Source: Deltaproteobacteria bacterium
Lineage (GTDB): Bacteria > Desulfobacterota > Syntrophobacteria > BM002
NCBI GenBank assembly: GCA_022340905.1
Contig: JAJDNB010000225.1
Coordinates: 1-41,997, forward strand
Length of the DNA stretch: 41,997 bases
Reading direction: 5' to 3'
The notes under the pieces were generated by a model. It ran no database searches. It had not been told where the DNA came from and saw only the letters and a list, made by a program, of their open reading frames with translations. A program made the position numbers and the translations under genes. Position 1 is the first letter of the stretch; each line of letters opens with the position of its first letter. Positions 8,525-10,766 of the stretch are shown in pieces.

Positions 8525-8606
8525 TGTTGAGAAAATCCACCTACTAAGTTGCAAAGTGCTACTGAAATGGTGGTTTTTCGTATTGAAAAAGGTTCTATTA
8601 AAGTTA
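8525..8606 (+). repeat. 82-bp direct repeat, copy 1 (upstream of flavin oxidase)
   Basis: It aligns without gaps to 10359-10440, with 70 of 82 positions identical. The best-conserved parts are TGTTGAGAAAATCCAC at the left and TTTTCGTATTGAAAAAGGTT near the right. It ends 70 nt before the oxidase start codon. Copy 2 ends 98 nt before the tautomerase start, in the same orientation. The TTGAAA in the conserved right part could be a -35 element. Confidence 0.9.
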
Positions 8607-8646
8607 GGCTCTTGGAATTAGGTCTGCACAATGTCGTGCCGGATTA

Positions 8647-8663
8647 GAGTCTTCGTAAGACTC
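8647..8663 (+). promoter_or_regulatory. Perfect 7-bp hairpin just before the oxidase ribosome binding site
   Basis: GAGTCTT (8647-8653), loop CGT, AAGACTC (8657-8663). The AAAGGGG ribosome binding site begins 1 nt later. A stable stem abutting the binding site could influence translation or mRNA stability. There is no T-tract, so it is not a simple terminator. Confidence 0.5.
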
Positions 8664-8676
8664 AAAGGGGTATATC

Positions 8677-10059
8677 ATGCTTGATGCAACTACCATAGAG
8701 AAGTTCAAGGCGAGCCTTCGGGGCGAGCTTATCCAACCCAGCGATGAGGGCTACGATGACGCCCGTAAGGTCTGGAACGGTATGTTCGACCGAAAACCTG
8801 CAATTATCGTACGATGTGTGAGTACAAGCGACGTTGTCAGCGCCGTAAATTTCGCCCGGGACGAAAGTCTCCTAATCTCAGTAAAAGGCGGCGGGCACCA
8901 CGTGGCTGGCACTGCTGTGTGCAACGACGGCATGATGATCGACCTCTCGCACATGCGGCAGGTAACGGTGGATAAGCGAAATAAGACGGCCCGGGTGGAC
9001 GGGGGCGCTCTATTGAGTGACGTTGACCACGAGACCCAGCTTCACGGTCTGGCCGTATCAGCGGGTATCGTCTCTCACACGGGCGTAGGCGGGCTTGCCT
9101 TGGGCGGAGGGTTCGGTTGGATCAGCCGCAAGCACGGCCTTTCTGTCGACAATTTGATCTCGGCCGAGGTCGTCACGGCGGAGGGCAACTTGGTCACAGC
9201 CAGCGCTGAGGAGAATTCGGACCTTTTCTGGGGTCTACGTGGAGGCGGTGGCAACTTCGGAGTTGTCACATCATTCGAGTTTAAGTGTGCGGAGATAGGC
9301 ACCGAAGTCTATTCGGGCCTGATCATCAAGAAGTTCGAGGACGCCAAGAAGTACATGCAGTTCCACAGTGAATACCTCCGGAAACTACCAGACGAGATGA
9401 CGGTGTGGATGGTGGTGCGTCACGCTCCCCCGCTACCGTTCCTACCGAATGAGATGCATGGGAAGATGGTAGTGGTGGTCCCGTTCGTGTGGCTGGGTGG
9501 GCAACAGGATGGTGAGAAACTCCTTAAACCAATTCGCGAGATCACAGAGTCGCATGGTGAGGCCATTGGCATGAACTCGTGGGTGGGCTGGCAATCCGGT
9601 TTCGATGGGCTCGTGGCTCATGGCGCCCGGAATTACTGGAAGTCGCACCACCTCCAGGAGCTCTCCGAAGGTTGCATCGACAAGATCATTGAGTTCGCCG
9701 GGAAAATGCCGAGCGACGAGTGTGAAGTGTTCATCCCGCACATGGAAGGGGCTCCAAGTCGGGTGCTGGAAAACGAGACGGCCTTTGCGCACCGCAAAAC
9801 ACCATTCGTTCTGAACATTCACACCCGGTGGCGGAACGCTTCCGACGATGAGAGGTGCCTGGCTTGGGCGAGGGATTTCCACAGCTCAACCCAGGATTAC
9901 GCCAAGGGCGTCTATGTGAACTTTCTCAGCGATATGGGAGAGGAGCGAGCCAAGGAAGCTTACAAGCCCGAGGTCTGGAATCGCCTCGTAGAGCTAAAGA
10001 ACAAGTACGACCCGCAAAATATGTTCCGACTGAATCATAACATTCCACCGAGTGTTTGA
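8677..10059 (+). CDS. FAD-linked oxidase with berberine-bridge-enzyme (BBE) C-terminus
   Basis: A 460-aa protein started at ATG 8677, with AGGGG about 6 nt upstream. The N-terminal PCMH-type FAD-binding domain (about 35-210) includes ISVKGGGHHVAGTAVCNDG, where H74 is in the position that bonds FAD through 8-alpha-histidyl. It is followed by GVGGLALGGGFGWISRKHGL. The cysteine of bicovalent family members is not present in that loop, so a single linkage as in 6-hydroxy-D-nicotine oxidase is expected. The BBE segment is at the end (GVYVNFLSDMGEE...YDPQNMFRLNHNI). The family oxidises alcohols, sugars or amines with O2. The substrate is unknown. Its base composition is visibly more GC-rich than neighbouring spacers and it is flanked by the 82-bp direct repeats, which together hint at acquisition by transfer. 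Confidence 0.88.
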   Translation: MLDATTIEKFKASLRGELIQPSDEGYDDARKVWNGMFDRKPAIIVRCVSTSDVVSAVNFARDESLLISVKGGGHHVAGTAVCNDGMMIDLSHMRQVTVDKRNKTARVDGGALLSDVDHETQLHGLAVSAGIVSHTGVGGLALGGGFGWISRKHGLSVDNLISAEVVTAEGNLVTASAEENSDLFWGLRGGGGNFGVVTSFEFKCAEIGTEVYSGLIIKKFEDAKKYMQFHSEYLRKLPDEMTVWMVVRHAPPLPFLPNEMHGKMVVVVPFVWLGGQQDGEKLLKPIREITESHGEAIGMNSWVGWQSGFDGLVAHGARNYWKSHHLQELSEGCIDKIIEFAGKMPSDECEVFIPHMEGAPSRVLENETAFAHRKTPFVLNIHTRWRNASDDERCLAWARDFHSSTQDYAKGVYVNFLSDMGEERAKEAYKPEVWNRLVELKNKYDPQNMFRLNHNIPPSV

Positions 10060-10177
10060 GCTGGAGACGGTGAGCAGTCAACTCCTGCAGAGCCGCCCCC
10101 AGTGTAGATTACATACTTAGATCCCCACTTTTCCCCTTGAGACCGATCTACAATATCTAGGTTTAAGCTTAGAAAAT

Positions 10178-10203
10178 GCGGAGTCCGTGGCTCCGCTTTT
10201 TTT
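10178..10203 (+). terminator. Rho-independent terminator after the flavin oxidase
   Basis: GCGGAG (10178-10183), a 7-nt loop, CTCCGC (10191-10196), then seven T. It lies 119 nt past the oxidase stop and isolates that gene from the tautomerase. Confidence 0.85.
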
Positions 10204-10358
10204 CTTCTCAACATCTTGTGCCTAAGCAGATCCTAGGGGAGTGTGAATTAAGGGATGTTATGTTTAGTCCTAGCGAACCAATAGGAAACTTTATATAGCT
10301 CGATCAAATCGCTCAAACCCATCCATACTGCCCACTCAGTCTCCCCGGTTGTCCACCT

Positions 10359-10440
10359 GTTGAGAAAATCCACATACTAAGGTGAAAAATACCACTAAAA
10401 CGGTGGCTTTTCGTATTGAAAAAGGTTCTACTGGAGTTAA
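10359..10440 (+). repeat. 82-bp direct repeat, copy 2 (upstream of tautomerase)
   Basis: The same length and orientation as 8525-8606, with 12 mismatches and no gaps. A small CCAC...GTGG hairpin (about 10393-10407) sits in the middle; copy 1 keeps the pairing through a T-G wobble at one position. The position upstream of a second gene suggests a shared regulatory element or the footprint of a duplication. Confidence 0.9.
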
Positions 10441-10538
10441 CCTTTATGATGGCAGGATGCAACAATACCACGTATGTACCTATCTACATATTTGAGTCGG
10501 ACTCACCACTATAGGGAGAAATTGAAAGAGAGGTTTCC

Positions 10539-10766
10539 ATGCCATTCGTCGAAATAAAAGTGTTTGAGGATGAACTCTCCGAAGAACAGAAACATGAGAT
10601 GATTCAAAAGATCACCGAGGTAGTGGTCTCTTTTGCAGGTGAGAATCTCCGTCAGGCTACCTGGGTCGTAGTCCAGGAGGTGAAAAGTGGCCATTGGGGA
10701 GTGGGAGGAAAACCACTGACTCTTAATGACATCAGGGCGATACAGGCCGGCAAGCCAGGATCTTAA
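10539..10766 (+). CDS. 4-oxalocrotonate tautomerase family protein
   Basis: 75 aa; starts MPFVEIKVFED, so after Met removal the catalytic Pro-1 is N-terminal as the family requires. GAGAGG is 7 nt upstream. The length is close to the 60-75 aa of small tautomerases. These enzymes move a proton between keto and enol forms, using Pro-1 as base. The C-terminal part (WGVGGKPLTLNDIRAIQ) fits the YusQ/praC-like group. The substrate is not evident. It is followed on the same strand, 100 nt later, by the DUF1326 gene and may be cotranscribed with it. Confidence 0.85.
   Translation: MPFVEIKVFEDELSEEQKHEMIQKITEVVVSFAGENLRQATWVVVQEVKSGHWGVGGKPLTLNDIRAIQAGKPGS

Follow-up and report, generated by a model that had tools for sequence, protein, structure and literature searches.

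A Probable Promoter Class Before a Flavin Oxidase Gene and a Tautomerase Gene in One Family of Uncultured Desulfobacterota

Two Enzyme Genes and a Direct Repeat

The window (the whole stretch of DNA analysed, 41,997 nucleotides from a Deltaproteobacteria bacterium) carries on its forward strand a gene for a BBE-type FAD-linked oxidase of 460 aa (8677..10059; PF01565 and PF08031) and, further downstream, a gene for a 4-oxalocrotonate-type tautomerase of 75 aa (10539..10766; PF01361, E 4.1e-17). Both are preceded, in the same orientation, by a copy of an 82-nt direct repeat, copy 1 (8525..8606, +) lying before the oxidase ATG at 8677 and copy 2 (10358..10439, +) before the tautomerase ATG at 10539, an arrangement that the initial annotation had correctly recognized. 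The ungapped alignment of the two copies contains 70 identical positions out of 82. The existence of the repeat and this degree of identity stood as first described, but the second copy had been placed one base off, at 10359–10440, where the ungapped identity is only 31/82. The ends of the repeat are better conserved than its middle, as had also been noted. When copy 1 was compared with the whole 4.1-Mb genome, its best non-self match was copy 2 (E 1.6e-20), so the repeat is not a product of chance; further short matches were obtained as well, the better ones all falling across the same 16–39 nt. Judging from the sequence comparisons described below, the repeat is most likely a promoter region, and neither a 5' RNA element nor an insertion scar. 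Copy 1 would be the promoter region of the oxidase gene and copy 2 that of the tautomerase gene, each recognized by its 70/82 identity to the other.

The Core Element and Its Promoter Boxes

The related sites have in common a core of 25 nt, AAAATRGTGGTTTTTCGTATTGACA, the 3' end of which is a sigma-70-type −35 box. In the logo of 64 sites, which also served as the profile set (6 of 70 sites had been dropped beforehand for excess similarity to others), the conservation of this core was found to be far above that of the flanks. Positions that the search pattern left free were also conserved, with T at −2 in 60, R at −1 in 62 and C at +17 in 50 of the 64 sites. In copy 1 the core occupies 8564..8588 (+) and is matched by profile R1 at 8562–8589 (32.2 bits, E 3.8e-7 in its own genome), and in copy 2 it occupies 10397..10421 (+), with a profile match at 10395–10422 (25.5 bits, E 5.2e-5). 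The −35 hexamer is TTGAAA in both copies (8583..8588 and 10416..10421, +), and it is followed after a 16-nt spacer by −10 hexamers that match TATAAT weakly, TAGGCT in copy 1 (8605..8610, +) and TAACCT in copy 2 (10438..10443, +). The transcription starts predicted from these boxes lie at about 8617 and about 10450, respectively.

The position of the −10 box was evaluated over the related sites. A TAnnnT box 16–18 nt past the −35 box was present in 48 of the 64 sites, with shuffled sequences giving a mean of 6.1 and a maximum of 14 (n = 1000). For the sites found later with the profile, which stops short of the −10 box, the value was 23 of 39, the G022 site, the one outside the family, being left out of this count (shuffles: mean 3.0, maximum 10, n = 2000). 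Extending the distance to 16–19 nt, the box was present in 88 of 109 sites and absent from 21, and the commonest −35 boxes among the 109 were TTGACA (51), TTGACT (17) and TTGAAA (12). With their 16-nt spacers, both window copies have the geometry of sigma-70-type promoters, in which the −35 and −10 hexamers stand 16–18 nt apart. A generic sigma-70 scan reported neither window promoter. This result and the poor −10 boxes fit the need for an activator, but they also count against a strong promoter. The shared promoter/operator suggested at the outset as one reading of the repeat is supported by a family-wide core with positioned −35 and −10 boxes and by the retention of this core before the oxidase gene in relatives. 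A part of the promoter outside these boxes, GTGGTTTTTCGTA, would be a putative operator.

The small hairpin that the initial annotation had pointed out in the middle of the repeat proved to be real. It reads CTAC-N7-GTGG in copy 1 (8559..8573, +) and CCAC-N7-GTGG in copy 2 (10392..10406, +), and its stem recurs in related sites; the two arms in copy 1 are possible operator half-sites. The consensus dyad, CYAC-N7-GTRG, has its centre some 20 nt before the −35 box and occurs in about a quarter of the sites. Four-pair stems at the same offset were found in 17 of the 64 sites with a loop of 7, and in 0–6 sites with loops of 3–6 and 8–25. Similarly, exact CYAC stands at the dyad offset in 15 of the 64 sites, and at any other offset in four at most.

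The mechanism favoured here is that a dedicated putative factor would bind the core beside RNA polymerase carrying the housekeeping sigma factor. An activator that offsets the poor −10 boxes is preferred for this role, a repressor or an unusual sigma factor being possible as well. The related proposal, that an alternative sigma factor reads an extended −35 element with no separate activator, is considered unlikely. The −35 region is long, asymmetric and nearly invariant, the −10 box is weak, and one G009 site has a sigma-70-family gene (507 aa) at a distance of 826 nt on its downstream side, all of which would agree with such a factor. That gene, however, is far from the site and separated from it by other reading frames, and the combination of TTGACA or TTGACT with TAnnnT at 16–18 nt is ordinary sigma-70 geometry. 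Moreover, the partial dyad lies in the upstream half of the element, and its half-sites, 11 bp apart, would suit a dimeric DNA-binding protein.

Distribution Among Genomes

The search pattern GTGGTTTTTCGTATTGA, with at most one mismatch, was found at 11 sites in the genome that holds the window (G000), and a reversed-pattern control (R at the first base) gave 0 sites in the same genome. Among 40 genomes, sites matching the pattern were present in 10 of the 12 genomes of the family (G000 included) versus 2 of the 28 others. The profile made from the 64 sites, which was built from sequence only, recovered sites with an E-value of 0.01 or less in 11 of the 12 genomes of the family versus 1 of 43 other genomes of the same bacterial class, with 15 sites in G000 and 1–19 in each of the other positive family genomes; members of the promoter class number 5–19 per genome in 9 of the 12. 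The family genome without a profile match at this threshold was G011, and the sole match outside the family (G022) sits within a 441-aa reading frame. In the GTDB contig collection the core 20-mer ATRGTGGTTTTTCGTATTGA has 15 occurrences; 14 belong to records whose titles name Deltaproteobacteria, Syntrophobacterales or Desulfobacterota, and one to a record titled only 'uncultured bacterium'. Taking the whole explanation together, both copies probably belong to a single promoter class restricted to one family of uncultured Desulfobacterota. A viral origin was rejected: a search of 2.9 million viral contigs yielded a single exact 19-mer match, which in L195 falls within a 308-aa frame of the opposite strand and is probably due to chance.

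The Genes Downstream

The proteins encoded near the sites were characterized by Pfam scans of 60 proteins from a subset of the 109 sites, some of them products of second genes downstream. The scans identified MscL, MscS-type channels, OsmC, Cu/Zn superoxide dismutase, 1-Cys peroxiredoxin, universal stress protein and dodecin, as well as isocitrate lyase, malate synthase, an AMPK-type glycogen-binding protein, ATP sulfurylase and a SulP transporter. CBS, cyclic-nucleotide-binding and GAF proteins and a SpoIIE-type phosphatase were identified too; among the regulator-type proteins encoded close to sites are a GAF-sigma54 activator and the cyclic-nucleotide-binding proteins. Several of the 60 proteins scanned had no Pfam family. 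No convincing same-strand gene was found near L127, L133, L135 and L337, the contig ending in L127 and L337.

The initial annotation had named many copies unrelated to gene starts as an observation that would favour a plain dispersed repeat. This was examined with blastp and the copies were found to track genes, since downstream genes recurring in at least two genomes formed 14 clusters with 58 of the 109 sites versus 10 clusters with 24 of the 109 for upstream neighbours; the dispersal of a repeat nevertheless contributes to the picture as well. Each of the three MscL genes found in the 12 genomes is preceded at 150 nt by a site, the one in G004 with 2 mismatches, and malate synthase bears the core in different genera (G009 and G010). 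As expected of a regulon, the motif therefore lies upstream of homologous genes in several genomes, as the clusters and the MscL genes demonstrate.

The earlier description of the two window genes as catabolic-looking enzymes was too narrow, as the genes taken together look more like a set for stress and the stationary phase. We read the downstream genes as a general-stress-like set, a reading taken from the list of families without a comparison with the genome background. Mechanosensitive channels, OsmC, superoxide dismutase and the glyoxylate shunt are targets of general-stress regulons, and in activator-dependent promoters a site abuts or overlaps the −35 box and the −10 box is poor. The class described here resembles both in its conserved site at −35, its poor −10 box and its target genes of this type, and differs from them in that no known regulator was matched to the motif here. 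The putative factor would turn on this general-stress or stationary-phase set and, in the window, the flavin oxidase and the tautomerase, although these two enzymes are not known to be stress proteins.

Spread of the Promoter Region

The pairing of the oxidase gene with this promoter was found in G000, G006 (before both of its oxidases, of 44% and 48% identity), G007, G008 and contig CAMYLW010000175. The site lies about 90 nt before the oxidase start in G000, G006, G007 and G008 and 70 nt before the start of the second G006 oxidase, the range for the four family genomes being 70–92 nt. The spacer and −10 pattern of copies 1 and 2 recur in four of the five other oxidase promoters, the exception being that of the second G006 oxidase. 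Two oxidase fragments in G005, an assembly with masked stretches, had no listed site. Of the other 11 family genomes, 5 hold relatives of the tautomerase, all of them distant (best 35–40%). The spacer AAGGTTCTAC..GAGTTA is common to copy 2 and the oxidase promoters, and a region of 196 nt (10243..10438, +) is 86% identical to the oxidase promoter region of G008. Because of this common spacer and the 196-nt match, copy 2 would have originated by copying of an oxidase-type promoter, as far as the −10 box, ahead of the tautomerase gene. The copy 2 region stands before the tautomerase gene in G000 and before the oxidase gene in G008, the strains compared not being close relatives.

The flanks of the 109 sites, with all genomes pooled, were then compared. 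Shared upstream flanks were found in 129 pairs, whereas five shufflings gave 0 each, and 113 of the 129 pairs (41 sites involved) had neither a common downstream flank nor a homologous downstream protein. Shared downstream flanks were found in 50 pairs, 27 with homologous proteins and 23 without, although no gene was called at some of the latter. Upstream flanks are common to unrelated genes and downstream flanks mainly to orthologues, and because of this difference copy 2 appears to be a propagated oxidase promoter. The two window copies are themselves alike (85% over 82 nt) before non-homologous genes within one genome; other upstream-similar pairs within one genome were found in G003, G004, G005, G006, G007 and G009, where the downstream relatedness was checked for only some.

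A MITE-like dispersed repeat with inverted ends (10108..10261, +), holding an internal terminator hairpin (10178–10196) followed by a T-run, adjoins copy 2 and belongs to a repeat family of its own. It has 16 matches in G000 and 0–24 in the other family genomes, with none in G010, in G011 or in the 3 outside genomes tested, and its distribution among genomes is nearly the same as that of the core. Much of the sharing of upstream flanks is accounted for by this repeat. At 23 of the 109 sites its right end precedes the core in the same orientation (57–155 nt away, and 57–69 nt away at 15 of them); it was found on the opposite strand at 3, downstream at 0 of 106 and far upstream at 0. This association, together with the upstream flanks shared by unrelated genes, is what would be expected if the direct repeat were part of a MITE-like intergenic family without a regulatory role, its promoter-like boxes being incidental. 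Such a reading is nevertheless decidedly improbable, as the MITE-like end is absent from 86 of the 109 sites and the core is conserved far better than the flanks. In addition, the −10 box lies outside the shared stretch and yet is positioned, and homologous genes in different genera bear the core, such as malate synthase in G009 and G010. On the promoter explanation, some promoters may have spread together with the MITE-like repeat, most standing without it. A more far-reaching version, held tentatively and with low confidence, is that a lineage-specific general-stress regulon was assembled by the spreading of a terminator-plus-promoter cassette, consisting of the MITE-like repeat, which would stop transcription arriving from upstream, and, at a near-fixed distance, a promoter dependent on an undescribed activator, so that new genes such as the tautomerase gene would be wired in by copying. 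A further dispersed module was noticed at 10240–10310, with 81–90% identity to contigs C184, C56 and C266 of the same genome.

Comparison With Known Systems

Putative mobile promoters, or 'promoter propagation', are described by Matus-Garcia, Nijveen and van Passel (2012) and by van Passel, Nijveen and Wahl (2014), both as represented in the excerpts of PMC5906472, PMC8049555 and PMC11111574. As far as those excerpts describe them, the present class agrees with them in having similar promoters before non-homologous genes in one genome, the upstream sequence being shared and the downstream sequence different. It differs in being a lineage-wide class with a 25-nt core, partly related targets and many copies that are diverged and not near-identical. 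The Correia repeat enclosed elements of Neisseria are small repeats that supply promoters (PMC2649163). They share with the MITE-like repeat of the window the form of a small inverted-end repeat able to give its neighbours a promoter at its end. In this comparison by description, the window repeat differs from them by containing a terminator hairpin; the promoter, for its part, stands some 60 nt or more past the repeat end and mostly occurs without the repeat. The cited passages on the two systems do not describe the present element. A promoter provided by the repeat's own end, as in the Correia type, was not what was found, the end being 57–155 nt off and present at only 23 of 109 sites.

A literature text search for the core letters GGTTTTTCGTATTG gave no match. 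The promoter class, probably real in one family, would be ordinary in kind, undescribed as far as the literature searches go, and present in the window as a duplicated copy. It can be regarded as a lineage-specific new example of two known kinds, the regulon promoter motif and the 'putative mobile promoter'. With this class, a family whose named records in the present searches are all uncultured bacteria or metagenome-assembled genomes gains a promoter element that is defined and can be searched for, together with candidate target genes. It is also a case where the sequence itself may show how a regulon grew as its promoter was copied. The factor, if found, would probably turn out to be a transcription regulator whose binding site is undescribed.

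Insertion and RNA Readings

The two copies had also been read as the scar of an insertion of the GC-richer oxidase gene, and it is true that direct repeats bracket this gene and that its GC content (0.56) exceeds that of the window (0.49). This is highly improbable, since copy 1 behaves as the oxidase's own promoter elsewhere too: the oxidase genes of G006, G007, G008 and CAMYLW010000175 have one copy in the same place and none behind in the stretches compared. Besides, the homology stops on the right at the −10 box, similar cores stand singly at many other genes, and no empty site was found in a relative, the neighbouring DUF1326-type gene occurring only in G007, at contig ends.

A riboswitch-like 5' RNA element common to both mRNAs, the remaining early suggestion, hardly deserves consideration in spite of the small hairpin in the repeat and the GAGTC..GACTC hairpin in the oxidase leader, because the predicted transcription start comes only after the conserved part and the repeat, ending at the −10 box, would not be transcribed from this promoter, Rfam gave 0 matches above the gathering score in the window, and the leader folds are ordinary (z about −1). 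The leader hairpin in question, GAGTCTT-CGT-AAGACTC (8647..8663, +), lies just 5' of the ribosome-binding site in a leader with a fold z of only −1.0. Similar weaker hairpins were seen in the oxidase leaders of relatives, in an alignment judged by eye. Known RNA families were rejected more widely as well: in 20 of the loci, the matches were limited to tRNAs, a group II intron and a SAM riboswitch, and no match was assigned to a site as its product.

Apart from the promoter class itself, some stretches downstream of sites attracted attention. L166, L124 and L153 (in G003, G004 and G007, respectively) have long conserved leaders with no clear gene, followed by a cyclic-nucleotide-binding gene. 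The downstream stretch at these three loci is possibly a small non-coding RNA; the leaders align, but the loci are orthologous. In G009, the stretches that follow the sites at L177 and L178, which have no Rfam match, contain reading frames with similar translations, one of them ahead of a sigma-70-family gene.
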